Shown here piece after piece: positions 6,043-21,736 of a stretch of 64,000 nucleotides of DNA (within the stretch, counting starts at the first letter, position 1; each line of letters opens with the position of its first letter). Under the pieces are notes generated by a model, which saw only the letters and a list, made by a program, of their open reading frames with translations, had not been told where the DNA came from and made no database searches. The stretch is taken from contig NZ_AQXX01000136.1 of NCBI RefSeq assembly GCF_000376785.1, forward strand, positions 1-64,000. Reading direction: 5' to 3'. Both the position numbers and the translations under genes were made by a program. This DNA is from Hahella ganghwensis DSM 17046 (GTDB lineage Bacteria > Pseudomonadota > Gammaproteobacteria > Pseudomonadales > Oleiphilaceae).

Positions 6043-6804
6043 CTAGCGTTTAATTACAAAAGCTGTTCCTGTAGTTAAATGAATTACACTCTCTGTTTTA
6101 TCTCTGAAAAAGTCGTCAAGCGCCTTGGTGGCTCCCGGACATGTCTCAAATCCATAGTCATCACATACAATCATGCCACCTGGAACCATTCTTTCGTAAA
6201 AGAATGACAACGTATCCAAAGTAGGTTGATATAAGTCCACATCAATATGAATAAGACGAAACTTCTTATCGCTAACCTCGCTGAATCTCTCTGGTATCCA
6301 TCCTTTATATATTTTTATCCTATCCTTAAACAAAGAAAGGTTTTTAATTACTACAGATTCATCTGTCCAGAGATCTCCGGCCTTCCATTCATATGTATCA
6401 TCTTCTGTTGGCGCATCAACCTCTGCCGGATCAGAAAGTCCTTCAAATGAGTCAAATATATGGTGCTGTGCAGTACTATCTGACAGAGCGGATAAAATGA
6501 TATAACTCCCCCCACCACGAAATGCGCCACATTCTGCAGTATCACCCTCAAGATTCGTCAAGGATTTGGTTAGGTTATATAAAACATACCGACGTTCATG
6601 GATCTTGTTACTGGCTTCGGGAAATCCATTCCACATATCCATAAAGGCATGATCTTTGTGCCACCAAAGCTTGCGATTGTATAAACGGTAACCCCAGCGT
6701 GAAGTTAACGAGCTTAAAATTTCATATCTGGCATCAGCACGTGTCACTTTCGACCCGAATACTGCCAACCACAAGAACTTTAAAAAACCGAATATTTTAT
6801 CCAT
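6043..6804 (-). CDS. TylF/MycF-family O-methyltransferase
   Basis: A 253-residue protein of the TylF/MycF sugar O-methyltransferase family. Hallmarks are AECGAFRGGGS (SAM-binding loop), HIFDSFEGLSDP, the metal-binding HIDVDLYQPT, and GGMIVCDDYGFETCPGAT with its paired Asp residues. The ATG at 6804 is preferred because GAAGG lies 7 bases upstream. An upstream in-frame start at 6834 has no such site. The first 8 bases overlap the end of asnB, which suggests translational coupling. Characterised relatives methylate deoxysugar hydroxyls, so the product is probably a methylated glycan. Confidence 0.88.
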   Translation of the reverse strand: MDKIFGFLKFLWLAVFGSKVTRADARYEILSSLTSRWGYRLYNRKLWWHKDHAFMDMWNGFPEASNKIHERRYVLYNLTKSLTNLEGDTAECGAFRGGGSYIILSALSDSTAQHHIFDSFEGLSDPAEVDAPTEDDTYEWKAGDLWTDESVVIKNLSLFKDRIKIYKGWIPERFSEVSDKKFRLIHIDVDLYQPTLDTLSFFYERMVPGGMIVCDDYGFETCPGATKALDDFFRDKTESVIHLTTGTAFVIKR

Positions 6805-8548
6805 TGTACAACCTTCTGACAGTTTCCAAATCAATATAGAGTTCCGATAGAATTTTATCTTGCCCCCAACAACGCTTTCCTGAAGAGTTCAATCTAAGTT
6901 CCGGCGGAACTCCGAAACCTTTTTTCCCAGCTGTATATATTGACCGAGGTAAAAAATCACTTGCCATATCTCTCAATATCATTTTGGTTTCATGTCCTGA
7001 CACTAACCATTTATCAGGCATACTAAATGCGTACTCTACGACGGATGTATCTAGGTATGGCACTCTTACTTCCAGTGAGGTGGACATACTCAGCCTGTCC
7101 ACCTTTGTAAGGATTGTATCAGGCATGGCGCCTTTAAAATCCATATACTGCATTCTTTTTAAGGGGGAAAGCTCAGGGATCAGATACTCCTTGAAGTGCC
7201 AATAAAGATCATAATCACTGGAAACTCCTAACCTTTTGGCAATTGCCATTGATTCATTCGGCAGCAAGCCTCCAGTTAAAAAGCAATAAAGATCTAAACC
7301 GCTTAAAAGTTTGCTTTCGAGATACCGGACCAACCTCCCGGGTACTGTCCATCCAAATAGAGCTTTAAAGTATTTAAATACATCAAACCTATCGTATTTT
7401 TTTGAAGAATCAAGGTCGACTTGCGCCAAATATCTTTTGTAGCCACCGAATAACTCATCCGCACCATCTCCACTTATTGCGACCTTAACTGAGCTGGAAG
7501 CCAGGGAACAGAGTTCATAGGTGGCAAGAGAGGAGAAATCTCCGAAAGGTTCATCAAACCAGCGACGCATTCTTTTAAAATTTTCGCCAGCTTGACGCCC
7601 CTCCAATTTCAGTTGGGTATTTTCCAACCCCAAATGATCAACAATGGAGTTTATCCGCAGGCTTTCATCATATTTCGGATTATTAAAGATGATAGAGAAT
7701 GTGGGTATGCGATGACCAGTTCTGCTTAACATTGATAGAAGCAGAGATGAGTCGATACCTCCACTCAAAAATGCCCCGACCGGAGCATCGCTTAAAAGCT
7801 GCATTTTAGCTGCACGAGATATCATACCAGACAGCTTATCTTTTGCTGTCTGGTAGTCATCCGACGATTCGGAAAAGCTGATATCCCAATATTTTTTTAT
7901 CTCAATCTGTTTAGTTGGAAGATCGTATTCCAGATAGTGTGCCGGTAATAGCTTTTGTACTTGTCGATATAATGTCTTTGGGGCCGGAATATATTTATAA
8001 GTATAAAAATCAAGTATGCTCTCGGGATCCACATTGTTATCCCCGAGGTTATAAAACGACTCAAGAGCCTTTAGCTCAGACGCCCAACCAAGCTGACCAT
8101 CAATACTTGAGTAGTATAGAGGCTTTATACCGCTTCTATCCCGAACCAGATAAATCTTTTGGTTATCTATATCGTAAACACTAAAGGCATACATTCCTTC
8201 AAGCCTGGAAAGCAGGCCCTCAACTCCCCATTCCATAAATCCATGGAGGATAACTTCTGAATCAGAGCCGCTTTTGAACTGGTACTTTTTCTCTAATAAC
8301 TTTTTCAGTTCAGGGTAGTTATATATTTCCCCATTAACACATATAACCACCTGTCCGCTGGACATAGGCTGTCTACCAGCTTCGGAAAGATCAATAATGC
8401 TGAGCCTGTTATGGCCCAGGTAAACAGATTCGCTTTTCCAGTCGCCGATGCCATCGGGCCCTCGATGCTGCAAAACTTCCAAACAACTCCGCAGATGGCC
8501 AGCATGACCAGCAACATCAATATTTGCGACTCCAAAAATTCCACACAT
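6797..8548 (-). CDS. asnB: Asparagine synthase-type glutamine amidotransferase (copy 1)
   Basis: A 583-residue class II amidotransferase/synthetase. It begins MCGIFGV with the catalytic Cys2. Glutamine-site motifs HRGPDG, RLSIIDLS and NGEIYN follow, and the ATP-pyrophosphatase loop SGGIDSS lies at about 262-268. In free metabolism AsnB makes asparagine from aspartate and glutamine. In glycan loci homologues such as WbpS of Pseudomonas aeruginosa O6 amidate uronic acids. Its position between a flippase and a sugar methyltransferase favours sugar amidation (inferred). Its start overlaps the flippase stop by 1 base. Confidence 0.85.
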   Translation of the reverse strand: MCGIFGVANIDVAGHAGHLRSCLEVLQHRGPDGIGDWKSESVYLGHNRLSIIDLSEAGRQPMSSGQVVICVNGEIYNYPELKKLLEKKYQFKSGSDSEVILHGFMEWGVEGLLSRLEGMYAFSVYDIDNQKIYLVRDRSGIKPLYYSSIDGQLGWASELKALESFYNLGDNNVDPESILDFYTYKYIPAPKTLYRQVQKLLPAHYLEYDLPTKQIEIKKYWDISFSESSDDYQTAKDKLSGMISRAAKMQLLSDAPVGAFLSGGIDSSLLLSMLSRTGHRIPTFSIIFNNPKYDESLRINSIVDHLGLENTQLKLEGRQAGENFKRMRRWFDEPFGDFSSLATYELCSLASSSVKVAISGDGADELFGGYKRYLAQVDLDSSKKYDRFDVFKYFKALFGWTVPGRLVRYLESKLLSGLDLYCFLTGGLLPNESMAIAKRLGVSSDYDLYWHFKEYLIPELSPLKRMQYMDFKGAMPDTILTKVDRLSMSTSLEVRVPYLDTSVVEYAFSMPDKWLVSGHETKMILRDMASDFLPRSIYTAGKKGFGVPPELRLNSSGKRCWGQDKILSELYIDLETVRRLYNG

Positions 8549-9822
8549 CAGTATTTACACCGCCTGAAATATCCAATAGCGAGAACCAACCAGACAAAGA
8601 AGTACACAATATACGCCGCGGCCGCACCGATAGCATGGTAGTCCCTTGTCAGAAAATACAAGAAAACCAGATAAATTGAGGTAGCAACGATCTGAATATT
8701 CAGACACGACCTGGCCAAACCGAGAGAGTGGAAGTAGGGAACAAAAGGCAGCCCGATAAAGCCTCCTGAAACAGCGACCAAATACCAGCTCATTATTGGG
8801 AATACGCCCAGATATTCTTCTCCGAATATCAAACCGATGACAGGTTCTCCAATAAGCAAAAAAACCAGATAAACCCCCAAAAATACCAGAAGGCCGTATA
8901 ATGCAAATTTTGTCACGATGCTTTTTGACTGTGCATACTGCCCTTTAGAATGCATAGACGACAGTTCTGGCAGTAATGATTGATATATAGGGTCCGTGAA
9001 CCTTAAAGGTAAAGAACATAGCTGAACTGCAATTTTATATAGCCCCACAACCTCTTTTCCGGCGAACAATCCCAATAGAATCACATCCAACTGTTTTGAC
9101 AGCGCACGAATAGAAACATCGAAGTTGTTTGCCACCATGAACCCTAGTTCTGAACGGAAGTGCTTAATCCTGAAAGCAGCAAGCCGAAACATCTCTCCAA
9201 ATTGGCTTCGATAGGCTCTTAATCCCCAAAACACCACCAATATATGAGTTAATATTTCAGGTATTGCCCAAGCTATTGCCATATGCAGCAGACTTCCATC
9301 AAACCACATTACAAGGCAAACCATCAGGAATCGCATTGAAAAGAGAGCTACTTGCGCCCTTCCTATATCAAGAAAGCGGTTTGCTATTCTTAGCAACCCA
9401 TTGAAGCTACCAGATATATTAAAAAAGATCGTTGCCAGATAGACACAAACAACCTGGGATTTAATATCACTCAAAGATGTATCCAACAGGATAAAGTATA
9501 CGGCATATGCCAGTATCCCCCCCAGAATTGAAATCAGTAGATCAATGGAAATAAATAGTGTCAGTAACTGATTAAGCCCAGACAGATCATGCGAATGCAC
9601 ATATTCAGTTCCGTATTTAATCGCAGGTGGTGCCGTCTGAAAATTCAAAACCGTCACATACAGAGTCACATATGCCTGAATTAATACTAGAAACCCAAAA
9701 TCGTCAGGCCCTAAATATCTGGCCGTTAAAATCAGCGTTAAAAAGCCAATTGCTGTAGCGATGGTATTGGCACTGAGCAGGTAGGCCGCATTTTTGAGAA
9801 TTCTCTGGGTACTTATATTCAT
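8548..9822 (-). CDS. Wzx-like polysaccharide flippase (MOP superfamily)
   Basis: A 424-residue polytopic protein with about twelve hydrophobic helices. The N-terminus (ILKNAAYLLSANTIATAIGF, then LTARYLGPDDFG) is the classic signature of Wzx/RfbX-type lipid-linked oligosaccharide flippases. The ATG at 9822, 1 base after the upstream stop and with GAG 7 bases before it, is preferred over the TTG at 9834. It should move undecaprenyl-linked repeat units to the periplasm. Its presence implies that the glycan is assembled on a lipid in the cytoplasm and used outside. Confidence 0.87.
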   Translation of the reverse strand: MNISTQRILKNAAYLLSANTIATAIGFLTLILTARYLGPDDFGFLVLIQAYVTLYVTVLNFQTAPPAIKYGTEYVHSHDLSGLNQLLTLFISIDLLISILGGILAYAVYFILLDTSLSDIKSQVVCVYLATIFFNISGSFNGLLRIANRFLDIGRAQVALFSMRFLMVCLVMWFDGSLLHMAIAWAIPEILTHILVVFWGLRAYRSQFGEMFRLAAFRIKHFRSELGFMVANNFDVSIRALSKQLDVILLGLFAGKEVVGLYKIAVQLCSLPLRFTDPIYQSLLPELSSMHSKGQYAQSKSIVTKFALYGLLVFLGVYLVFLLIGEPVIGLIFGEEYLGVFPIMSWYLVAVSGGFIGLPFVPYFHSLGLARSCLNIQIVATSIYLVFLYFLTRDYHAIGAAAAYIVYFFVWLVLAIGYFRRCKY

Positions 9823-9823
9823 T

Positions 9824-10918
9824 CTATCGCTCAAGATAAAAACGAGCGATATGCTCTATATCATGAAGTTTGACCAACGAACTATAGTCTTTTTTGACAT
9901 CCCCGGACTCCAGTTCCTTCTGAATGAAATTCGCCAAAGCCATTGCATCACCAACAGGACAAAGTTCCATCCCCATTCGATCTTTCAGCAATTTACCCGG
10001 ACCACTATTGCAATCGGTAGCAACGATAGGACGCTGCAGAACCATCGCTTCAATCAGAACGTTCACATAACCTTCCCAGCGAGAGGAAAGTATGAATACG
10101 CGTGCATTGGCGATGTATGGATAGGGGTTCTGCAGATACCCCATCAATATCACAGACTGGCTTAGCTCATATTGCCGAATCAGATCTTCCAGCTCATTTC
10201 CTTGGGGGCCGTCACCAACGATGAGCAGACGAACCGGACGCCTCTTGGTCAGCTCCCTGACCGCATCAATCAATACGTCATATCCCTTCGCGGGCACCAG
10301 CCGACCTACCGCAACCAGTAAGGGAACGGTTGATTCAATATTGATATCCGAAGGTAACGGCTGCTGCGCCAGGGAAACAATACGGGAGACATCCACCGGA
10401 TTCGGCATTAACTCAAGCTTCTCTGGCTTATTGACGTATCCATCGGCGAGTTGATGGGCTACATAATCAGATGTGCAAATAATTTTATCTGCGAATCGAT
10501 AGAGTATTCGCATCATCACACGTTTTAATCCGGATTTAGTGTTTTCCAGTGAACTGGCCTCACGAATCCACACTTCGACCTTTCTGTCGAATCCAAAGCA
10601 CAGCAGCGTAAACAGATTCATGCCAGTAATGGTAGAGACAACCCGTTTGGCCTTTTGACGATCAACCAGCCTACGAAGCTTCCACCACTGTATGACTCGA
10701 GAGACGATTGGCGCATGGGCTCCGGGCTCACTGAGATATTCAATCCAGGGAACCTGACCATACACATCAACCAGCCCACCAGTTTTATCCAGACAGATCA
10801 ACTGGACGTCATGCCCAGCATCATATAGGTACTGGCAGAGTTCACAGAATACCTTTTCTGCTCCACCGTGTTCCATCGAGGGCAAAAGGAATACCACTTT
10901 CCCCACACTACGACCCAC
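9824..10918 (-). CDS. Glycosyltransferase family 4 (GT-B)
   Basis: A GT-B glycosyltransferase of about 364 residues. The conserved N-terminal VVFLLPSMEHGGAEKVFCEL is the acceptor-domain GGAE motif of GT4 enzymes. The donor site shows LLVAVGRLVPAKGYDVLIDA, LIVGDGPQGNELEDL and SRWEGYVNVLIEAM, with the catalytic-type Glu. Start choice is uncertain: GTG at 10918 or 10906. A longer frame starting at 10966 would overlap the upstream gene by 59 bases and adds non-conserved residues. The donor sugar is not predictable. Confidence 0.85.
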   Translation of the reverse strand: MGRSVGKVVFLLPSMEHGGAEKVFCELCQYLYDAGHDVQLICLDKTGGLVDVYGQVPWIEYLSEPGAHAPIVSRVIQWWKLRRLVDRQKAKRVVSTITGMNLFTLLCFGFDRKVEVWIREASSLENTKSGLKRVMMRILYRFADKIICTSDYVAHQLADGYVNKPEKLELMPNPVDVSRIVSLAQQPLPSDINIESTVPLLVAVGRLVPAKGYDVLIDAVRELTKRRPVRLLIVGDGPQGNELEDLIRQYELSQSVILMGYLQNPYPYIANARVFILSSRWEGYVNVLIEAMVLQRPIVATDCNSGPGKLLKDRMGMELCPVGDAMALANFIQKELESGDVKKDYSSLVKLHDIEHIARFYLER

Positions 10919-12761
10919 GATGCTGCCACCGCAAATAAACCAACAAAGACCAAAGCAGCAGGCCATAGTCGGTCGTTCTGTTTCTGTGCTGATCGAGCAA
11001 CGCTAGAATGGACGTCCCAGTTCCTCCCAGTTGAGGGTTTTGCCTGACAGATTCTTTCAGATAGTCACCAAGATCTCCCAGTAACCACTCAGATACGGGA
11101 ACAGAAAATCCTTGTTTACGTCTTTTCAGCACATAGCTCGGCAGCATATCTGAATAAGCTTTCCTCAGTATCCTTTTACCGGATAATCCGCGTCTATGCC
11201 ATGAGACAGGGAGACTGAAGGCAAATTCAGCCAGTTGGTAATCCAAAAAAGGGGAACGTACCTCAAGAGAGTGATACATGCTCGACCTGTCACTTTTAAG
11301 CAATATATCCTGCGGGAGATAGTTCACCATGTCATCCAACATCATGCTGATAACCTCAGAGGGAGAAGACTCCCCCAAAGGATGGCTGACAATATATCCA
11401 AATCCACTTAAATCGGGGAAATAGGTCTGCTCATCAGCTTCCATCAGTAAGCGCGGGGTCAAGTGCTGGGGAAATTTCTCATAACGCTCTGCAAGCGACA
11501 CAAATAACTGTGCTTTCTTGACTAGACTTCGACTATGGTGAGAGTGTGAGGCAGGAATTTTCTTTAGTGCTTTCGTGACAGCAGACCGCAGCTTCTGAGG
11601 TAACGTCAGATAATATCGGGAGAGAATGCGCCCTTGATAACGTTGATAGCCCGACAGGACCTCGTCTGCGCCGTCGCCACAAAGCGCCACTTTTACATGT
11701 CTTCCGGCAAGTTCGGCCACTTTCGCAGCCGGCAGCATAGAAACATCTCCAAACGGTTGCCCCAAGGCGTTATCCAAAAGACTAAAAAAGTCTTCTGGCA
11801 CCAGTTTTTCAACCGTTTCAGAATAGTTGGTAATTTCTAACCCTTCAGCAACCCTGCGGGCATAATGACTCTCATCAAAAGACCGGCTCTTGAAGCCAAT
11901 TGTAAAGGTTTTAGGAGACAGCCCGAATTCGCGGGTCAGGAGCGTCACGATCAAAGAAGAATCGACACCACCGGACAACAGCGCCCCAACTTCAACATCA
12001 GATACCAGTCTCTTTTCCAGAGACTCAGACAATAATGTTCGAAAACGTGAGCAGGCATTAGAGTAACTACCAGTATATGGCATCACTTCAAGCTTCCAGT
12101 ATGCCTTGCTTTCTATCTCTGCGCCCGGTCTCCAGTAGGCATAATGGCCGGGCAGTATTTCACAGACACTATCATAGAGGGTTTTGCCTGGTGCAAAAAA
12201 ACCGTGTCGGAAGTAATCTGCCCGGCTATGTAGATCTTCTTCAGGTAGCTCACCGCCCAATAAAGTTTGCAGTGCAGGCAGTTCTGAGGCCAGCGACAAG
12301 CTGTTATGATCGGAATGATAATAAAGAGGCTTCTTTCCGAATCGGTCCCGACTCATTAATAAAGCTTTTTCTTCCTGATCCCAAAACGCAAAAGCCCACA
12401 TCCCATCCATTTTGCGGATAAACTCCGGACCTTCACACAAGATGCCCGCCAGGACGACTTCTGTATCACCGGAGGTTTGAAAGCTCCATCGATTCGACAG
12501 CCCTCCCCTGAGTTCACGGTAATTGTATATCTCGCCATTAAAGGTGAGTACGAAACGCCCATCAGGTGAAAACATAGGCTGTTCACTGGAAGAAAGATCA
12601 ATAATAGACAGCCTTCGGTGACCAATCATCCAATCATCGCCGCCTGAAGTGCCACTGGCGTCAGGGCCCCTGTGTCGCATAATGTTCAGGGCGCTTTCCA
12701 TTCTCGAAGTCATTTCCTCGACCTTCATCCCTGGTTGGAACATGTAGGCTATACCACACAT
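10908..12761 (-). CDS. asnB: Asparagine synthase-type glutamine amidotransferase (copy 2)
   Basis: A 617-residue homologue of the first amidotransferase in the cluster. The start is fixed by MCGIAYMF (catalytic Cys2) at 12761, 1 base after the upstream stop; an upstream in-frame start would bury the nucleophile. HRGPDASG, RLSIIDLS, NGEIYN and the SGGVDSS loop (about 263-269) are all present, so both half-reactions look intact. It differs clearly in sequence from copy 1, so it is not a recent tandem duplication. Two such enzymes in one glycan operon suggest two different amidated carboxylates. Confidence 0.85.
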   Translation of the reverse strand: MCGIAYMFQPGMKVEEMTSRMESALNIMRHRGPDASGTSGGDDWMIGHRRLSIIDLSSSEQPMFSPDGRFVLTFNGEIYNYRELRGGLSNRWSFQTSGDTEVVLAGILCEGPEFIRKMDGMWAFAFWDQEEKALLMSRDRFGKKPLYYHSDHNSLSLASELPALQTLLGGELPEEDLHSRADYFRHGFFAPGKTLYDSVCEILPGHYAYWRPGAEIESKAYWKLEVMPYTGSYSNACSRFRTLLSESLEKRLVSDVEVGALLSGGVDSSLIVTLLTREFGLSPKTFTIGFKSRSFDESHYARRVAEGLEITNYSETVEKLVPEDFFSLLDNALGQPFGDVSMLPAAKVAELAGRHVKVALCGDGADEVLSGYQRYQGRILSRYYLTLPQKLRSAVTKALKKIPASHSHHSRSLVKKAQLFVSLAERYEKFPQHLTPRLLMEADEQTYFPDLSGFGYIVSHPLGESSPSEVISMMLDDMVNYLPQDILLKSDRSSMYHSLEVRSPFLDYQLAEFAFSLPVSWHRRGLSGKRILRKAYSDMLPSYVLKRRKQGFSVPVSEWLLGDLGDYLKESVRQNPQLGGTGTSILALLDQHRNRTTDYGLLLWSLLVYLRWQHRGS

Positions 12762-12762
12762 C

Positions 12763-13995
12763 TTAGCCAGCCTTAGAACCGGTAGATGGTACAAATCGGC
12801 CGAAGAATTTCATATATTTATCGGCACAGCCTTCCCAGGTCATTCCCAGTTTTTTGACCTTCTGACAAGCCTCCTGTCCCATATGCAACGTATTCTCGAT
12901 GTCGTTTAGGCATCCATCAATCGCTTTAGCCAAGTCTCTTTCATTTTCCGATTCGAAGACCAGACCATCCTGTCCGGGACAAATCAATTGCGTATGTGGC
13001 GCAATATCACTGGCAATCACACAACAACCGGACGCCATAGCTTCGACTACCGCATTTGGTCGCCCTTCGCCTGTACTGGCGCTAATAAATATTGTGGTGC
13101 GGGAAAGCAGCTCCGCGACGTCCTCTGGAGGACAACTGCCATGGAACACAATCTGGTCAGCCAGTGAGAGATCTTTTGCCAGCTGCGTTAACTTCTGCCT
13201 TTCCTTCCCTTCTCCAATGACATTCAGTTTCAGCTTTGGCAGGCTTTTCTCTCGCATAGCCAGAGCCTTAAAAATAAGCTGAACATTTTTACGCGGAATA
13301 AGGCTACCAACAGTCGTCAACTCTATAACATCGGAGGAGACGGCCTTGTCTTTTTTAGAGAGCCCCAATCTTACAAACTCATCCGCCACTCCATTGTGAA
13401 TAACCACAGCTTTCTCTGGGTTATACATGCCGGATATCTTGCCATCTAAACCCTCACCAACGAAAACCACGCCATCACTCCAAGCAATAGACTTGGTAAG
13501 GATATAACGGCTAATCGGGCTGGTCTGATTGATATCCTCCCCCCTTAGCGTTGTCACCACAACTTTCCTATGAAACCACCTGCCAAGCCCTGCAATAAAG
13601 CCGCAAATTGCCCAATTGGCATGAATAACATCAACATGTCTGGAGACTTTGATAATTTTCCACAAGAACGACAGCAGCAAAACAGGCACCAGAATCCAAT
13701 ACCCGGGATGTGTTCGGAGGAATACCGGTATACCCCCGGGTTGATGTGCCAGTTTCTGCCAGGATTTCGGTGCATAGCGAACTCTGTGAAGCCGAAGTGT
13801 ATCGGAACAGGCTACAGATTCATCAGGTGAAAAATGATCATCCGGTGTTACCACTGATACCAGGCACTTCTTCGCAAGCGCTTCAGCAAGCCTCCCGACA
13901 AAAACCCCGCTGACACTGGAAGTGGTCAGAGGATAGGAGGTGGTACATTCGAGCACTCTGAGGCGAGAGTTCATATTGCAAGTAGCGTCAGTCAT
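12763..13995 (-). CDS. Glycosyltransferase family 4 (GT-B)
   Basis: A 410-residue GT4-type transferase. The N-terminus LRVLECTTSYPLTTSSVSGV resembles WecA-coupled and exopolysaccharide GTs. The acceptor region includes DVIHANWAICGFIAGLG and VVTTLRGEDIN. The donor site has TVGSLIPRKNVQLIFKAL, LNVIGEGKERQKL and SASTGEGRPNAVVEAMASG, the canonical EGxxxxxxEA motif. Its ATG at 13995 overlaps the upstream GT2 stop by 8 bases; an internal ATG at 13974 is possible but has no ribosome binding site. It probably adds a sugar to the lipid-linked glycan. Confidence 0.87.
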   Translation of the reverse strand: MTDATCNMNSRLRVLECTTSYPLTTSSVSGVFVGRLAEALAKKCLVSVVTPDDHFSPDESVACSDTLRLHRVRYAPKSWQKLAHQPGGIPVFLRTHPGYWILVPVLLLSFLWKIIKVSRHVDVIHANWAICGFIAGLGRWFHRKVVVTTLRGEDINQTSPISRYILTKSIAWSDGVVFVGEGLDGKISGMYNPEKAVVIHNGVADEFVRLGLSKKDKAVSSDVIELTTVGSLIPRKNVQLIFKALAMREKSLPKLKLNVIGEGKERQKLTQLAKDLSLADQIVFHGSCPPEDVAELLSRTTIFISASTGEGRPNAVVEAMASGCCVIASDIAPHTQLICPGQDGLVFESENERDLAKAIDGCLNDIENTLHMGQEACQKVKKLGMTWEGCADKYMKFFGRFVPSTGSKAG

Positions 13996-14842
13996 CCTGC
14001 TTCATATACTGCAAGTTACTGACCTGCTCTGATATTAGCCCTAGAGCAAAAAACAGAAGACTTGATATGAAGAGTAACGCTGACATATTGGTAAAGCGGC
14101 CTGCTGACACATATGTGTACCCATAGTAGGACAACCCCAAAAAGAAGAGGGACGCACATACCGGAAAAAACAGCTTGAGAGGTGAATAAAGTGTTCCGAT
14201 TTTGAATATAATCAACAGAAACCGGAATCCATCCTTAAATAACTTGATATGACTGGTACCAATGCGCTCTTTGACTTTGATCGGCACATAACACACCGAA
14301 TACCCAGCACGAAAAAACGCCATCGTTGAGGTGGTTGGATACGAAAAGCCATTTGGTAACATATAAAGAAAGCGAATGAATTTCGACCTTATCACCGCAC
14401 GAAATCCTGATGTCAGGTCCATCACCTTTTGCCCGACCATCCAGGATGAGAACCAGTTGTAAAAACTGTTCGCGAGGTAACGCCCCGCAGAAGCCTGGGA
14501 ATCACGACCCCGCGAGCCAACAACCAGATCAAAACCTTCCTCGATCTTGGCGGTTAGTTTGACGATATCTTCGGGCTCATGCTGGCCATCCGCATCCATG
14601 AACACCAAAACATCTCCGGTAGCAGCCCTGGCACCTGACTTGATTGCCGCGCCGTTACCTTTTGAGTAGGGATGCTTTACCTCTATCACATTGTTTTCTT
14701 TACATATCTCTGACGTATTATCGGTAGAACCATCGTTCACCAGAATGATTTCATCTGATGGATAAAGAGATTTTAGTTTCGGCAACAACGTGACGAGAGA
14801 AGCCGCTTCGTTTTTACTGGGTATTATTATCGATAAGTTCAT
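13988..14842 (-). CDS. GT2 family glycosyltransferase with C-terminal membrane helices
   Basis: A 284-residue GT-A enzyme of the dolichol-phosphate-mannose-synthase type. It shows SIIIPSKNEAASL, EIILVNDGSTDNT, VFMDADGQHEPEDI (DxD) and VVGSRGRDS. Two membrane helices lie at about 227-245 and 255-272. This family transfers sugars to polyprenyl phosphate, which then feeds GT-C enzymes in the periplasm. The gene overlaps the upstream GT-C-like gene by 29 bases, a coupling that fits a donor-synthase/user pair (inferred). Confidence 0.87.
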   Translation of the reverse strand: MNLSIIIPSKNEAASLVTLLPKLKSLYPSDEIILVNDGSTDNTSEICKENNVIEVKHPYSKGNGAAIKSGARAATGDVLVFMDADGQHEPEDIVKLTAKIEEGFDLVVGSRGRDSQASAGRYLANSFYNWFSSWMVGQKVMDLTSGFRAVIRSKFIRFLYMLPNGFSYPTTSTMAFFRAGYSVCYVPIKVKERIGTSHIKLFKDGFRFLLIIFKIGTLYSPLKLFFPVCASLFFLGLSYYGYTYVSAGRFTNMSALLFISSLLFFALGLISEQVSNLQYMKQDD

Positions 14843-16799
14843 GAGTTCCGTTATCTGCAGAATGGTTCATCTGTTTCAGAGCCCGTATTTTCATTTCGAG
14901 CTGCTTTATCGTATCTGCCTGTGAAGGAACAATCCGTTTGCGTCGGCGTGATTCATCTAGAAGATAGGCCTTTTCGATATATTCCAAAGCGTCATCATAC
15001 AAGCCGGCTGAAGCCAGATACTGTGCCTGTCGAACATGCACTACAGAAATTCGCTGGTGAAGAGCAGCTTCGTCCAGCAATTTCATTGCAGCATTCAGGT
15101 TACCCTGCCCAGCATATTTTTCTCCCAGGAAGAATAGAAGCTCTGCCTTTTGAGCTCCTTTCATTCCTGACGCATCGGTTAAAGCCTCAACAATCCGGAG
15201 AGCTTTTCCCCTGGATTCTTCCGATGCACATTTGCCGTCAATGTAAAAATCCCCAAAGTTCTTGGTAACTGTCAGTAGGCCACCATTGTAGCTGGCAGAA
15301 TCCAACCTGCTGATTACATAATCCATATCTTTATCTGTGATGACCTGGTGTTTGCAAGCAATATTCAATTCAGCGATGGGTAGGGATATATCATCGGGGA
15401 ACTTTTCATGCGCTTTGCTTAAAATTCTCACACCAGTATCCGCCCACTCCGGTATATTCCCCAAAAACTGGCCGTAAACGCGCTGAGCACGCAAAGAGTC
15501 AGGATGCTCAGTTGCCCAGAATGTCAGCAGATTAAACAAATCTCCCCATATACGGGCAGACTGATGTGTCAGAAAGCTTCCAGCCACCAGATAGAGACAA
15601 AATGTTCCCACGAGCAAGAAACGCCCAATGGGAGCGCCAATTAACCTTCCAACAAGAAGAAATATCTGACCCAGAGCCAGAAAAACACCAACCATCGGCA
15701 GGTAATTCCGGTGTTCAAAATACAACTCCAGCGGCAAAAAAGTAGATTCAAGCAAGTGGCCACCAAAGAAAAACAAAACACCAAAACTAAATAATGGAGC
15801 TTTCACTCTAGTAAGAAAGGCAGCCACCACTAGAACAAAAATAGCCACTAGAGCAGACAACGTTGTCCAAGGCTCTAACAAGGAAGCCGAAACAACAAAA
15901 TCGTCATGCATTAAGCCGGAACCATAAGACCTTGGCGCAAGGATATAGCCAATATAATCAAATAGTATTCTGGGTTCTGTCAGCAGCCTGTGCTGCAACG
16001 TAAATTCACGATTTTCGTATGGACGTAACAGCGAATCCATATTAATGACAAAATAGCCAACCAGGATGAGTAGAGGGAATATCACCCCGCTGAAGTAGAT
16101 AACTTTAAAGTAAGCCGTTCGCTTATTTTTCTGAAAGAACACCCATTCAATAATCAAAAGGAAAAGCAGAGCCAGTATTCCATTTTCCTTACTTAACACT
16201 GCCAATGCTGAAAAAGGCATGATCGCCAACATGACAAACAACAGACCGAATTTGCGATTTGCCTGCATTCTGTCTCGTCCCACAATATAAAAGATGCAGG
16301 CACACAAAGAGAATAACGCAGATAACTGGGTCATGCGCTGAATGACATACAGTACCGTGGATACGTTTAATGGATGAATCAGCCACACTCCTCCTACCAA
16401 CGCTGCTATCAGGCAGGCACTGTGAGGCTTAGTTTCCACAAGCAACAATAAGCGGTATACCAGGTAAAAAATCAATACGCCACAAAGAAGATGAATCATC
16501 AGGTTGACGTACTTGAAGCTATAAGATGGCGCAGGCCAGTACTGATCCGACAGCAGAAATGACGCCATCGACACAGGACGACCCAACTTTCCTGAAGTAT
16601 TGGAAAATATAAACTGAAATGCCGATTCCCAATCAGTCACACCGTTGCCCAAGGCAACCAGATTCACGGAATCATCCAGCAAAAAAGGCCCTGTCAGTCC
16701 CGGCCAATACAGAACTGAGACCACAAGCAAGAGTGCCAAAAAAAATACAGTATATAGAGCAGATTTCAGAAGTGATCTATCTGACAAGGAGTAATTCAT
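14814..16799 (-). CDS. GT-C-like membrane protein with C-terminal TPR-like region; candidate pilin glycosyltransferase
   Basis: A 661-residue protein with roughly ten membrane helices (about residues 15-430) and a soluble C-terminal helical-repeat region whose pairs (AELLFFLGEKYAGQGNLNAA, AQYLASAGLYDDALEYIEKA) look like TPRs. The first periplasmic loop has an acidic pair in GPFLLDDSVNLV, like the catalytic motif of GT-C enzymes, and HPLNVSTVLYVIQRM follows. The ATG at 16799 is chosen over a TTG at 16814. It sits directly downstream of pilA and overlaps a polyprenyl-phosphate GT2, so it may glycosylate pilin. That function is inferred, not shown. Confidence 0.6.
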   Translation of the reverse strand: MNYSLSDRSLLKSALYTVFFLALLLVVSVLYWPGLTGPFLLDDSVNLVALGNGVTDWESAFQFIFSNTSGKLGRPVSMASFLLSDQYWPAPSYSFKYVNLMIHLLCGVLIFYLVYRLLLLVETKPHSACLIAALVGGVWLIHPLNVSTVLYVIQRMTQLSALFSLCACIFYIVGRDRMQANRKFGLLFVMLAIMPFSALAVLSKENGILALLFLLIIEWVFFQKNKRTAYFKVIYFSGVIFPLLILVGYFVINMDSLLRPYENREFTLQHRLLTEPRILFDYIGYILAPRSYGSGLMHDDFVVSASLLEPWTTLSALVAIFVLVVAAFLTRVKAPLFSFGVLFFFGGHLLESTFLPLELYFEHRNYLPMVGVFLALGQIFLLVGRLIGAPIGRFLLVGTFCLYLVAGSFLTHQSARIWGDLFNLLTFWATEHPDSLRAQRVYGQFLGNIPEWADTGVRILSKAHEKFPDDISLPIAELNIACKHQVITDKDMDYVISRLDSASYNGGLLTVTKNFGDFYIDGKCASEESRGKALRIVEALTDASGMKGAQKAELLFFLGEKYAGQGNLNAAMKLLDEAALHQRISVVHVRQAQYLASAGLYDDALEYIEKAYLLDESRRRKRIVPSQADTIKQLEMKIRALKQMNHSADNGTHELIDNNTQ

Positions 16800-16948
16800 T
16801 ACATAACTCAGCAATGGAGAGGTTACGGAATTCTAATATTTGGAACGGTAAATATTTAGATATTAAAGCATTTTTTCCGGATTCATCCAGAACTGGCTAC
16901 AAGATATCTCAATTTAATTTCCCGACACTCGCGAAAGCGTCATGCCGG

Positions 16949-16968: not shown

Positions 16969-17020
16969 TGCCACTTTAGCTCCAGCATTATCTCCATCAA
17001 CCAAGCCACGTTGCAGATAA

Positions 17021-17046
17021 AAAAAGCTCCCGGATGGGAGCTTTTT
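17021..17046 (-). terminator. Rho-independent terminator after pilA
   Basis: A stem made of AAAAAGCTCCC and GGGAGCTTTTT with a 4-base loop, starting 13 bases after the pilA stop. It gives a U-rich tail on the minus strand and would work in both directions. It isolates the abundant pilA transcript from the glycan operon. Confidence 0.9.
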
Positions 17047-17059
17047 CTTAAAGAACCGA

Positions 17060-17491
17060 TTAACGGCAGTTAGCAGGCAGGTATTTATCTGCCAAAGTAC
17101 CTTCGTCACAACTCCACTGAACACCGTTAGCGTCGCCAGAACCGGTAAACACAATGGTTTGACCGTTTGCGTCCGCCACCAGGTTTTTCAGAGTGTAAGT
17201 CAACACCGCACCAGTCGCATTGGTGGAGAAGTTGATGGAGTTCAGGTAATCACTTTGAAGTGCATTGGTGTTGATACCAGCTTCACCAGTAGATGCAGGC
17301 ATACTACCAGTAGACAGATAGTACTCAGAAGTTGTGGTTTTGGCTGCAGATGCAATTACCATAACTTCTGAAATTTTAGCGCGAACGGTGTAGTCCTGAT
17401 AAGCGGGAATCGCCACAGCAGCCAGAATACCGATGATTGCTACAACAATCATCAATTCAATCAGAGTAAAACCTTGCTGGTTAGATTTCAT
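17060..17491 (-). CDS. pilA: Type IV pilin major subunit PilA
   Basis: A 143-residue type IVa prepilin. A 7-residue leader ends in Gly and is followed by [20 protein letters not shown], the class III signal cut and N-methylated by PilD; Glu5 of the mature pilin is present. The C-terminal disulfide loop is formed by Cys128 and Cys142. The Ser/Thr-rich middle (e.g. [10 protein letters not shown]) offers possible O-glycosylation sites. A good ribosome binding site (GGAGA) precedes the ATG. The gene is divergent from pilB and upstream of a glycan operon, as in pilin-glycosylating strains of other genera. Confidence 0.96.
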
Positions 17492-17864: not shown

Positions 17865-19577
17865 ATGAATACACAAGCCACTCCCCCGCTTACGGGCTTG
17901 GCCAGACGCTTTGTCCTCGATGGTATCGTTGACGAGCAGATTGCCAGGGATTCCCAAAAAAGCGCCGCCAAAGAAAAACTGCCATTTGTCACTTACCTGG
18001 TGCAAAACGGGTTAGCTAATCCCACCCAACTTGCGTACGCCGCATCCTCAGAGTTTGGCGTACCGGTATTTGACCTGGAAACAGTGTCATCCGATCAGAT
18101 CCCTGAGAAGATTGTTGACGAAAAACTGATCAGAAAACATCACGCCCTCCCTCTATTTAAAAGAGGAAACAGACTTTTTATCGCCGTAGCGGACCCGACC
18201 AATCTGCAAGCTCTGGATGAAATCAAGTTCAATACAGGGCTAAGCACTGATGCCGTAATCGTCGAAGACGATAAGCTTTCTTCCGCCATCGACAAATACC
18301 TGGACGCCCAGGAGCAACCTCTGGGGGACTTTGAGGACGGCGATTTCGACGATCTGGATATAAGCTCTGCGGAGGATGCTGACAAGGATGATGACACCAG
18401 CTCAGAGCAGGATGACGCCCCAATCGTTCGATACATTAACAAAATGCTTTTGGACGCAATAAAGTCTGGAGCATCAGACATCCACTTTGAACCCTACGAG
18501 AAAACCTATCGGGTTCGATTCAGAACCGATGGCATTCTTCAGGAGATATCAAAACCCTCAATTAAGCTGGCCGCCAAATTGTCGGCCCGTTTGAAGGTAA
18601 TGTCTCAACTGGACATTTCAGAACGCCGACTCCCGCAGGATGGACGAATAAAGCTGAAACTCTCGAAAACAAAGGCCATTGATTTTCGGGTGAATACACT
18701 TCCTACACTATGGGGAGAAAAAATAGTACTTCGGATTCTGGACCCCAGCAGCGCCAAACTAGGTATTGATGCCCTCGGCTATGAAGAGCACCAGAAAAAA
18801 ATGTATCTCGATGCCCTGGCTCAACCTCAAGGTATGATTTTGGTAACAGGGCCGACGGGGAGTGGTAAAACCGTTTCACTTTACACGGGTCTGAATATCC
18901 TCAATACCACCGAACGCAATATTTCTACTGCTGAGGACCCAGTTGAAATCAACCTGGAAGGCATCAACCAGGTCAACGTCAACCCCAAAGTGGGCCTGGA
19001 CTTCTCCTCTGCCCTGCGGGCCTTTCTCCGTCAAGACCCGGATGTCGTCATGGTTGGGGAGATCCGAGATCTTGATACAGCATCAATTGCGATAAAAGCA
19101 GCACAAACCGGCCACTTAGTATTATCCACACTTCACACCAACAGCGCTCCTGAAACACTGACAAGGCTTATGAATATGGGTGTTCCCGCATTCAACATCG
19201 CCACTTCTGTCAGCTTGATCATCGCCCAACGTCTTGCCCGTCGGCTTTGTGCTGACTGCAAGGAGGAGTTGACTGTTCCTGAAAATGTCCTGAAAGAGGA
19301 AGGTTTCACAGACCAACAAATTGAAACAGGGTTTAAGTTGTATACCCATAAAGGGTGTGCTAAATGCAAGAGTGGATATAAGGGACGTGTTGGTATCTAC
19401 GAAGTTGTAAGGATAAATCCCGCTATGCAAGAGCTAATCATGCAAGAAGCCAGCTCACTTGAAATAGCCAAGCAAGCCCAGAAAGAAGGGTTTAACAATC
19501 TTCGTCAGTCTGCACTCAAGAAAGTTATAGACGGGCTAACCAGCCTTGAAGAAGCGAATCGGGTAACGAAGGATTAA
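17865..19577 (+). CDS. pilB: Type IV pilus extension ATPase PilB
   Basis: A 570-residue secretion ATPase that powers pilus extension at the inner membrane. The N-terminal MshEN-like region (about 1-145) is followed by an acidic linker (155-183) and the ATPase core. Walker A is GPTGSGKT (329-336). The Asp box is DPVEI, Walker B is DPDVVMVGEIRD (about 391-402), and the His box is TGHLVLSTLHTNSA. The zinc-binding cysteines are 461/464 and 497/500. Length and motif order match PilB. pilC follows after 2 bases. Confidence 0.96.
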   Translation: MNTQATPPLTGLARRFVLDGIVDEQIARDSQKSAAKEKLPFVTYLVQNGLANPTQLAYAASSEFGVPVFDLETVSSDQIPEKIVDEKLIRKHHALPLFKRGNRLFIAVADPTNLQALDEIKFNTGLSTDAVIVEDDKLSSAIDKYLDAQEQPLGDFEDGDFDDLDISSAEDADKDDDTSSEQDDAPIVRYINKMLLDAIKSGASDIHFEPYEKTYRVRFRTDGILQEISKPSIKLAAKLSARLKVMSQLDISERRLPQDGRIKLKLSKTKAIDFRVNTLPTLWGEKIVLRILDPSSAKLGIDALGYEEHQKKMYLDALAQPQGMILVTGPTGSGKTVSLYTGLNILNTTERNISTAEDPVEINLEGINQVNVNPKVGLDFSSALRAFLRQDPDVVMVGEIRDLDTASIAIKAAQTGHLVLSTLHTNSAPETLTRLMNMGVPAFNIATSVSLIIAQRLARRLCADCKEELTVPENVLKEEGFTDQQIETGFKLYTHKGCAKCKSGYKGRVGIYEVVRINPAMQELIMQEASSLEIAKQAQKEGFNNLRQSALKKVIDGLTSLEEANRVTKD

Positions 19578-19579
19578 CT

Positions 19580-20800
19580 ATGGCTCAAGCAGCTCAAAAA
19601 ACCACCACTTTTGTGTGGGAAGGTACTGATAAGAAGGGGCTTAAATCAAAAGGTGAAGCAGTTGGAAACAATGCGTCCCTGGTGAAGGCCCAACTCAGGA
19701 AGCAGGGAATCAACCCCACCAAGGTTAAAAAGAAACAGGAAAGTATTTTTAGCAACCGCGCTAAAAAGATAACGCCTTTTGATATTGCGGTTTTCACACG
19801 CCAGATGGCGACCATGATGAAAGCCGGTGTACCTTTGGTTCAGTCGTTCGACATTGTCGCGGAAGGCTTGGAACACCCAGCTTTGAGACAACTTGTCCTG
19901 GATATCAAAAATGATGTTGCAGCGGGTAACAGCTTTGCCGGCGCCCTCGCTAAGCACCCGAAACATTTTGATGATCTGTTTTGCAACCTGATTGACTCCG
20001 GAGAAAAATCTGGAGCCCTGGAAACCATGTTGGAAAGGGTCGCGACTTACTTGGAGAAAACAGAACAACTGAAGAAGAAAGTTAAAAAAGCAATGACCTA
20101 CCCAATATCGGTACTGGTCGTTGCCTTTATCGTAACAGGGATATTGCTGGTTAAGGTGGTTCCCCAATTCCAGGAAATATTCCAGGGATTCGGAGCAGAC
20201 CTGCCAGCATTCACATTGATGGTCATTGGTATTTCTGAAGTGATGCAGGAATACTGGTACATGGTGTTAATAGGCATCATTGTTGTAGGTGTCAGCTTCA
20301 CTGAGGCTAAGCGGCGGTCACCGGAGTTTTCAGATAAAGTTGACGCTGCGATGTTGAAAATGCCTATTGTAGGGGACATTCTACACAAGTCTGCCGTTGC
20401 CAGATTTGCCAGGGTCCTCGCCACAACCTTTGCTGCCGGTGTTCCCTTGGTAGATGCCTTGGAATCTGTGGCCGGTGCCACTGGTAATGCGGTATTCAGA
20501 AAAGCAGTGCTCAAAATTCGTGATGAAGTATCTTCCGGTACCCAACTTCAGATGAGCATGAAGTCTACCGGCGTTTTTCCTGCCATGGCAGTGCAACTGA
20601 CGGCCATCGGCGAAGAATCAGGTGCACTCGATGATATGCTTGCGAAAGTAGCAGACCACTACGAGTCAGAAGTCGACGATGCGGTAGACAACCTCACTGC
20701 GTTAATGGAGCCTCTGATCATGGCCGTTCTTGGTGTACTTGTCGGTGGTCTGATCGTTGCCATGTACCTACCAATATTCCAGTTGGGTCAGGTCGTCTGA
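19580..20800 (+). CDS. pilC: Type IV pilus inner-membrane platform protein PilC
   Basis: A 406-residue member of the GspF/PilC family with two homologous cytoplasmic domains (about 65-190 and 270-390). Each begins with the family pattern (FTRQMATMMKAGVPLVQSFD and FARVLATTFAAGVPLVDALE). Three membrane helices lie at about 172-195, 215-240 and 377-400. It links the PilB/PilT motors to the pilus. It is co-transcribed with pilB and ends just before a terminator. Confidence 0.95.
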   Translation: MAQAAQKTTTFVWEGTDKKGLKSKGEAVGNNASLVKAQLRKQGINPTKVKKKQESIFSNRAKKITPFDIAVFTRQMATMMKAGVPLVQSFDIVAEGLEHPALRQLVLDIKNDVAAGNSFAGALAKHPKHFDDLFCNLIDSGEKSGALETMLERVATYLEKTEQLKKKVKKAMTYPISVLVVAFIVTGILLVKVVPQFQEIFQGFGADLPAFTLMVIGISEVMQEYWYMVLIGIIVVGVSFTEAKRRSPEFSDKVDAAMLKMPIVGDILHKSAVARFARVLATTFAAGVPLVDALESVAGATGNAVFRKAVLKIRDEVSSGTQLQMSMKSTGVFPAMAVQLTAIGEESGALDDMLAKVADHYESEVDDAVDNLTALMEPLIMAVLGVLVGGLIVAMYLPIFQLGQVV

Positions 20801-20863: not shown

Positions 20864-21736
20864 ATGGAATCCGTCTTTAATCATTTAAACCAGAACCCCG
20901 CGGCACTATATCTGTCAGTGGTGGTACTGGGCCTTATCATTGGCAGCTTTTTCAATGTCGTCATTTTCCGACTGCCCAAAATACTGGAGCAGGAATGGCG
21001 GGTACAATGCGCCGAACTGATGGAGCAGGAACCTCCTGAGGATCAGGGGAAGATCACACTTTCCACCCCAGCCTCCACCTGCCCCCACTGCGGACATCGT
21101 ATCAAGCCATGGGAGAATATCCCTGTCGTTAGCTATCTCGTACTGCGAGGTAAGTGTTCTTCCTGCAAGACCACTATTTCAGCCCGCTACCCGATCATAG
21201 AAACGGTCACCGCGGTTCTGGCAATAATAGCCATCTACCAGTTTGAACTCTCATGGACTGGACTCGCGGCGGTCGTTTTCACCTGGATGCTGTTAATTCT
21301 ATCGATGATCGACTTTGACACCCAGCTTCTTCCGGATGTTATTACCCTCCCCCTATTGTGGTTAGGCCTGCTTGTAAATACCCAGGGAATCTTCACTTCA
21401 CTTGAAGAAGCCGTCTGGGGTGCAGTCTTCGGCTATTTGGCGCTCTGGTCTGTGTACCACCTCTTTAAGCTTCTTACCGGTAAGGAAGGCATGGGGTTTG
21501 GAGATTTCAAACTACTGGGAGCCCTTGGAGCCTGGCTAGGATGGAAAATACTTCCACTGATCATTCTACTTTCGTCACTGGTAGGCGCTGTCGTTGGATT
21601 GATTCTTATCGCCGCAATGGGCAGGGATAAGAATATTCCCATACCATTTGGCCCTTACCTCGCAGCAGCTGGCTGGATTGCCATGATGTGGGGAAATGAG
21701 ATCGTTACGGGCTACATGGGACTCTATTCCCATTAA
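20864..21736 (+). CDS. pilD: Prepilin leader peptidase / N-methyltransferase PilD
   Basis: A 290-residue bifunctional membrane aspartyl protease that removes the pilin leader and methylates the new N-terminus. The cytoplasmic loop carries the two CxxC pairs (Cys73/76 and Cys98/101). The catalytic aspartates are in LSMIDFDTQLLPD and in the GMGFGDFKLLG motif. About eight membrane helices and full length agree with the family. Its substrates should include PilA here and any type II secretion pseudopilins elsewhere. Confidence 0.96.
   Translation: MESVFNHLNQNPAALYLSVVVLGLIIGSFFNVVIFRLPKILEQEWRVQCAELMEQEPPEDQGKITLSTPASTCPHCGHRIKPWENIPVVSYLVLRGKCSSCKTTISARYPIIETVTAVLAIIAIYQFELSWTGLAAVVFTWMLLILSMIDFDTQLLPDVITLPLLWLGLLVNTQGIFTSLEEAVWGAVFGYLALWSVYHLFKLLTGKEGMGFGDFKLLGALGAWLGWKILPLIILLSSLVGAVVGLILIAAMGRDKNIPIPFGPYLAAAGWIAMMWGNEIVTGYMGLYSH

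Follow-up and report, generated by a model that had tools for sequence, protein, structure and literature searches.

A predicted GT-C/TPR pilin glycosyltransferase beside pilA in Hahella ganghwensis and its distant relationship to TfpW

Gene layout at pilA

We analyzed a 64,000-nucleotide stretch of Hahella ganghwensis DSM 17046 (contig NZ_AQXX01000136.1, positions 1 to 64,000; hereafter the window) and describe here a membrane protein gene following pilA that is predicted to encode a pilin glycosyltransferase with a GT-C fold and a TPR-like domain. Its open reading frame (ORF; 14814-16814, reverse strand) encodes 666 residues from a TTG start or 661 from an in-frame ATG at 16799, and its assignment draws on the ORF, a structural model and matches to GT-C enzymes. 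The pilA gene, whose product is the predicted acceptor, lies 245 bp upstream (17060-17491, reverse strand) and encodes a type IV pilin (Pfam Pilin 2e-21, N_methyl 4e-11). On the other side, a GT2 gene of the same strand (13988-14842; Glycos_transf_2, 5e-31) overlaps the GT-C gene by 29 bp. The GT2 protein carries a C-terminal hydrophobic stretch and is a predicted polyprenyl-phosphate-sugar synthase. We take the GT-C ORF to be a real gene because the protein is encoded in 26 of 58 genomes searched (its own included) and because 22 alignment columns, D47 and D48 among them, are invariant over 27 divergent sequences.

A first-pass annotation had read this gene as following pilA and encoding many membrane helices with a TPR-like C-terminus. 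The ORF, Pfam and the structural model confirmed this description, with about 11 helices.

Predicted fold and conserved residues

Pfam and NCBIfam gave only weak matches to the GT-C protein, nearly all of TPR type. Across 27 homologues, Pfam matched 24 families at E<=0.1, mostly TPR or other helical repeats, with no GT-C and no Wzy_C family among them. The predicted catalytic half was without a curated family in NCBIfam (window protein) and in Pfam (27 members). Wzy_C had no Pfam match in the window protein at E<=1, in keeping with the earlier remark that it does not look like PilO/TfpO or PglL, and a Wzy_C/PilO/PglL identity was ruled out for lack of a domain match. TfpO/PilO, TfpM, PglS and PglL differ from it in having this domain, although TfpO, TfpM and PglS resemble its predicted role in performing pilin-linked O-glycosylation (PMC12645811). 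Searches of phage and plasmid collections gave no match to the GT-C protein at E<=0.001.

A confident AlphaFold model built from 27 sequences had a predicted local distance difference test score (pLDDT) of 88.6 and a predicted template modeling score (pTM) of 0.88. When the model was compared with the PDB by VIA-align, its first 430 residues matched yeast oligosaccharyltransferase (OST)/STT3 at Z 18.9 (root-mean-square deviation 4.9, 337 residues aligned), archaeal AglB at 17.9, Pmt4 at 17.4, ArnT at 15.3, AftD at 14.3 and AftB at 13.7. Helical repeats from about residue 426 aligned to TPR domains (STUB1, Z 12.2, 132 aligned); high Z scores can arise by chance among helical proteins. The 32 best structure matches were, by title, GT-C enzymes or a glycosylphosphatidylinositol transamidase chain, which we take to be the PIG-U subunit. 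PIG-U has been placed in the GT-C clan (PMC7801869). Foldseek alone ranked repeat proteins at the top and OST at position 36. When the family profile was searched against PDB sequences, the 60 matches listed out of 224 were TPR/PPR-type or designed or fused helical-repeat proteins, a result uninformative for the membrane part. On the model, the fold of the first ~430 residues is GT-C; an outcome other than GT-C, which the first-pass annotation had named as the way to overturn its proposal, did not occur.

Topology was assigned by hand from the model helices as 11 transmembrane helices, N-terminus in and C-terminus out. On this topology the residues conserved across clades fall on the periplasmic side, either within loops or where helices end there. 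Eight are invariant in all 42 sequences drawn from three clades (D47, D48, R79, P148, R160, K209, Y287 and W423). The acidic motif LLDDSVNLV (residues 45-53; 16656-16682, reverse strand), which had been singled out as lying in a periplasmic loop, falls in the first such loop by the same hand assignment and supplies D47 and D48, with R79 in the same loop. P148 and R160 lie at loop 2, K209-E210 (16185-16190, reverse strand; K in 42/42, E in 41/42) at loop 3, and Y287 and P294 in loop 4. The fifth loop contains LELYFEHRNYLP (15696-15731, reverse strand), where E363, H368, R369 and Y371 are conserved without exception across the 27 core sequences. W423 directly precedes the TPR-like domain (residues about 426-655; 14850-15539, reverse strand), which Pfam, the alignment and the model support and which is predicted to be periplasmic. 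Within it, C529 is present in 27/27 homologues and C487 in at least 90% of them.

A TPR-like domain and a place in the pilA cassette would also suit a non-catalytic, chaperone-like pilus assembly factor, the role proposed for TfpY (PMC11841053). Conservation of the loop residues over 42 sequences, together with the GT2 partner, suits an enzyme better, and we give the assembly-factor explanation a negligible share of the probability.

TfpW homology and linkage to pilA

In Pseudomonas paraeruginosa PA7 the gene order is pilA-tfpW-tfpX (PMC12369383), TfpX has 244 residues and TfpW glycosylates its own pilin (PMC11841053). TfpW is the pilin D-arabinofuranosyltransferase of PA7 and Pa5196, a GT-C enzyme. 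A family hidden Markov model searched against 398 genomes (the family of a Pseudomonas viridiflava genome) matched, at 4e-16, an ORF flanked by a pilin gene directly upstream and a 245-residue gene downstream. Because this gene order and the size of TfpX agree with those of PA7, we took the ORF to be its TfpW. By hhalign, the window family matched the TfpW family at 99.7% probability (E 9e-26, 584 columns, about 15% identity) and a third pilA-linked clade, of about 548 residues, over 483 columns (E 1e-26). The TfpW model, of lower confidence (pLDDT 73.7, pTM 0.75), has the same order of elements as the window protein and matched AglB at Z 20.4 and ArnT at 18.7. On these profile alignments and models, TfpW is a distant full-length homologue of the window protein and shares its architecture. 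Both genes follow pilA directly, and both proteins combine a GT-C fold with TPR-like C-terminal helices and share the DD, R, P, R, K-E, Y, P and W positions. They differ in that the window gene adjoins a GT2 gene while PA7 tfpW is followed by the 245-residue TfpX gene. In two genomes the GT-C gene is separated from GT2 by a TfpX-like gene (L014:359-1105, reverse strand, and L024:3195-3920; 27-29% identical to PA7 TfpX, E 3e-14 and 2e-19), paralleling tfpX after tfpW in PA7.

A 135-row tree, from which L071, L109 and L139 were left out, supported the TfpW clade, the 548-residue clade and the core clade containing the window protein with SH-aLRT values of 100, 100 and 97. The TfpW and 548-residue clades join on long branches, so that their mutual placement is unsure. 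The window protein falls outside the TfpW clade, in the larger core clade, and because the clades separate we classify it, from its sequence, as TfpW-like rather than as TfpW itself. The suggestion of a wholly new pilin-modifying class therefore gives way to a separate clade within a type of enzyme already known. The core clade is apparently a large, undescribed TfpW-like group, often with a GT2 partner; we found no description of it in the literature searched, with most subscription papers and preprints lying outside coverage.

Among 123 non-redundant core loci, a pilin gene of the same strand stood immediately upstream in 90 (called by similarity only in L032, L048 and L058). A further 13 had a pilin gene nearby, and two had no upstream gene. 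By source, immediate linkage was found in 22 of 28 loci from relatives, 50 of 76 from genome contigs, 17 of 18 from Pseudomonadaceae and in the window. The 76 contig loci were drawn from the best 80 tblastn matches among at least 521 relatives confirmed in one contig scan, and are not a random sample; the best 80 include Gammaproteobacteria, some Betaproteobacteria and Magnetococcales. The clade GT2 adjoined the GT-C gene in 60 of the 123 loci and lay within three genes in seven more. In the TfpW and 548-residue clades the gene came directly after pilA in 12 of 13 loci, and in the thirteenth (L143) the pilin ORF overlaps the called start of the GT-C gene. Co-occurrence with pilA had been named as a check on the proposed role, and homologues unlinked to pilA were not the outcome.

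Some loci depart from the simple arrangement. A second GT-C gene stood next or next but one in 13 of the 123 core loci; tandem GT-C genes after pilin genes (L045, L051, L054, L080, L081, L086, L087 and L098; Competibacteraceae, Dyella, Rhodanobacter) perhaps add two sugars. In Woeseiaceae-like loci (L053, L061, L065, L067, L075, L088, L094, L097 and L102) the GT-C gene is found not at pilA but at the opposite end of the pil cluster, beside coaE-like and pilD-like genes named by eye. In one Hahella genome, two transposase-like ORFs (L155:9676-10629, reverse strand; IS110-like by eye) separate pilA from the GT-C gene.

Donor, acceptor and competing explanations

The GT-C gene and GT2 would follow the two-gene logic of known systems. 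In the ArnC-ArnT and GtrB-GtrC pairs, a GT2 enzyme makes a polyprenyl-phosphate sugar and a membrane enzyme uses it. The acceptors known for these pairs are lipids or glycans rather than pilin. The nearest solved chains to the window GT2 were ArnC (3e-15), GtrB sll0501 (4e-14) and dolichol-phosphate-mannose synthase (2e-13), and the GT-C protein matches ArnT. The top NCBIfam matches of the GT2 (AglJ, PgfS and dolichyl-phosphate hexose transferase) were all under cut-off. This evidence supports a polyprenyl-phosphate sugar as the GT2 product, without naming the sugar, and is in line with the first-pass reading of the overlapping GT2 as the source of a lipid-linked sugar. For the GT-C protein, a lipid-linked donor is suggested by this neighbor. 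In PA7 the arabinose genes supplying the TfpW donor lie away from tfpW (PMC12369383).

The position after pilA is occupied by other proteins where the GT-C gene is missing. It was absent from 32 genomes, in 26 of which the pilA slot was read. A Wzy_C-type protein, as in TfpO/TfpM/PglL/PglS-type systems, followed pilA directly on the same strand in eight of the 26, and at a ninth locus (L205) such a protein had pilin genes of the other strand around it. The other slots held a sulfatase-fold protein (two, one of them after two pilin genes), a beta-lactamase-fold protein (three) or a TfpX-like gene on the other strand (one), and 11 contained no protein that could be placed (three of these, L208, L207 and L214, with a Pfam-scanned neighbor). 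The GT-C profile matched none of 19 slot proteins tested. The Hahella ganghwensis genome itself encodes two Wzy_C proteins, both on other contigs.

The sulfatase-fold membrane proteins (PF00884; L197:1046-2437 and L203:1464-3386, reverse strand) have the fold of phosphoethanolamine transferases and might add a phospho-group to pilin. The beta-lactamase-fold proteins (PF00144, about 400 residues with an N-terminal hydrophobic stretch; L189:1219-2430, L200:950-2134 and L211:927-2135) follow pilA directly, share 38-43% mutual identity and are possibly another pilin accessory protein.

Pilins associated with the two enzyme types differed at their C-termini. A C-terminal Ser/Thr was present in 8 of 87 GT-C-linked pilins (the three called by similarity being absent from this count) versus 5 of 8 Wzy_C-slot pilins (Fisher p 0.001). 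This p value is only a guide, as the control pilins are few, the loci are related and one control ORF (L192) was retained although it seems misframed; no pilin from L205 could be used. In work reported by Kus et al. in 2008, TfpW pilins are said to be modified at Thr64/Thr66, which are internal. Because GT-C-linked pilins rarely end in Ser/Thr, and the TfpO/TfpM site is a C-terminal Ser/Thr (PMC12645811), the acceptor residue in GT-C-linked pilins is probably internal.

Fold, conservation, pilA linkage, TfpW homology and the kind of GT2 were all obtained by computation. Taken together, they make it likely, in our judgment, that the window protein is a periplasm-facing GT-C enzyme which O-glycosylates the adjacent PilA with a donor made by the overlapping GT2. 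Support also comes from the Wzy_C-type proteins that take the slot in relatives, from the hairpins in the pilA-GT-C gaps and from the two interposed TfpX-like genes. The activity, acceptor, sugar, flipping and residue roles that we infer would combine as follows. GT2 would load a monosaccharide onto polyprenyl phosphate at the cytoplasmic side, and the product would be flipped to the periplasmic side. There, before polymerization, the GT-C protein would move the sugar to a Ser/Thr of PilA. The catalytic site would include D47/D48, the lipid phosphate would be close to K209/E210 and to the arginine of the fifth loop, and the pilin would be held by the TPR domain. The first-pass interpretation thus stands as to fold, linkage, the lack of Wzy_C and the GT2 partner, though not as to a wholly new class, and pilin modification is its predicted part.

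Downstream of GT2, overlapping genes on the reverse strand (6043-13995) encode a GT4, an AsnB-like protein, a second GT4, a Wzx-like flippase (Polysacc_synt), a second AsnB-like protein and a TylF-like methyltransferase, possibly for glycan assembly. These genes raise the alternative of a pilin oligosaccharyltransferase that moves their preassembled glycan, with GT2 merely decorating it. In its favor, the GT-C fold matches OST/STT3 as closely as PMT/ArnT, the overlapping GT4, AsnB-like and Wzx-like genes resemble a glycan assembly set, and TfpW has been termed an oligosaccharyltransferase (PMC12369383) and, in a preprint title cited by PMC11841053, multifunctional. The downstream genes are mostly not kept in the genus, however. 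Within 18-19 kb of six same-genus genomes, Wzx and TylF matched in 0/6, AsnB in 2/6 and the first GT4 in 4/6 (25-33% identity). GT2 accompanies the GT-C gene more consistently across the family (67/123 within three genes), and we consider en bloc transfer unlikely.

The same six genomes show that the slot at pilA changes quickly. Identity to the window was 79-89% for PilB and 82-85.5% for PilC, but 39-50% for PilA and 27-35% for the GT-C protein. Four of the six carried the clade GT2, at 61-65%; one genome carried a different GT2 and one had none nearby. GT-C proteins of the genus were scattered over several separate parts of the tree.

Several observations weigh against a pilin-glycosylating enzyme with a GT2 partner. 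No pilin gene was seen in the stretch read at 18 of the 123 core loci, a figure that overcounts, as several are still pil-linked: L008 and L027 sit right after pilA and a TfpX-like gene, transposase-like pieces separate pilA from the GT-C gene in L004, and a gene resembling pilD is nearby in L053, L067 and L094. The clade GT2 was not within three genes at 56 loci (43 with none, 13 with tandem GT-C genes), and an immediate upstream pilin together with an immediate downstream GT2 was found in just 52 of 123. A direct BLASTP comparison of the window protein with TfpW was weak (27% over 198 residues, E 4e-6). The TPR scores of the GT-C protein, including TPR_2 at 5.7e-05 on the C-terminus, fall under the Pfam gathering cut-off, and loop charges clearly back the topology at just two short cytoplasmic loops. 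Finally, three genomes (L018, L020 and L028) encode a second GT-C copy away from pilA, in addition to a pilA-linked one. As such copies exist, some members may have other targets.

These distant copies, along with a GT-C fold common to ArnT, would also fit an ArnT-like modifier of lipid or polysaccharide that neighbors pilA only because the pil locus borders glycan genes. Under that explanation it is hard to see why the pilin gene should be immediately upstream on the same strand at 90 of 123 loci, whereas the genes beyond vary, and the window protein is homologous to TfpW, a pilin enzyme. We regard an ArnT-like role as very improbable.

If PilA is indeed the target, the GT-C type of pilin glycosylation described for P. 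paraeruginosa TfpW would be spread much more widely, with pilin-specific enzymes operating by a simple two-gene donor/transferase logic. Homologues of the TfpW arabinose system have been reported in P. syringae (PMC12369383).

A eukaryotic comparison can be drawn with TMTC1-4, O-mannosyltransferases of CAZy family GT105 that combine GT-C and TPR parts. TMTCs share the layout of 11 transmembrane helices plus TPR, and their printed motifs are DD, SHKSYRP, RxD, KE and ERxxY (PMC7801869). Compared with these motifs as printed, the window protein shows a tentative likeness in DD and RP of loop 1, R of loop 2 and KE of loop 3, and the ERxxY-type arginine motif of loop 5 is EHRNY-like in the window family. 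The loop 2 RxD is without its D in the window protein, while TfpW retains RxD. TMTC_DUF1736 (PF08409) had no match in the window protein at E<=1; it was also unmatched in its own genome and 398 genomes of the phylum, where the controls matched nowhere either, so that absence is not shown. We found no paper linking TfpW with TMTC1 in the literature searched.

More speculatively, and with somewhat less than even confidence, we propose that pilA-GT-C(TPR)-GT2 represents a widespread, undescribed pathway of pilin O-glycosylation in which monosaccharides are passed on one step at a time from polyprenyl phosphate and no glycan is transferred as a block. In this pathway and TfpW, bacteria would have an equivalent of eukaryotic TMTC O-mannosylation, and its cassettes would diversify fast and be exchangeable, so varying the glycans of the pilus (e.g. 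against pilus phages). A common mechanism of bacterial GT-C-TPR enzymes and TMTCs would then become a testable question.

The gap between pilA and the GT-C gene contains a terminator-like hairpin (17019-17048, reverse strand; -18.5 kcal/mol, z -5.5). It was found by folding and was not listed by a simple terminator scan, probably because the stem extends into the T tract. At a threshold of -10 kcal/mol, hairpins were present in 59 of 79 testable gaps of homologous loci versus 4 of 60 single-base-shuffled controls, and at -8 kcal/mol in 59 of 79 versus 10 of 60. Of the 90 gaps, 11 were too short to test, and the shuffled control drew on 60 of the 79. A terminator behind the pilin is a common trait of pilin-accessory gene cassettes in P. 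aeruginosa (PMC11841053).

Divergent from pilA, the forward strand carries a pilB-type gene (17865-19577) kept in the six same-genus genomes, followed by pilC-type (19580-20800) and pilD-type (20864-21736) genes; these are presumably pilB, pilC and pilD, named by sequence likeness. Further away, a forward-strand gene (2738-4303) encodes a 521-residue membrane protein that matched nothing in Pfam at E<=0.001, and a DCC1-like oxidoreductase gene comes after it.

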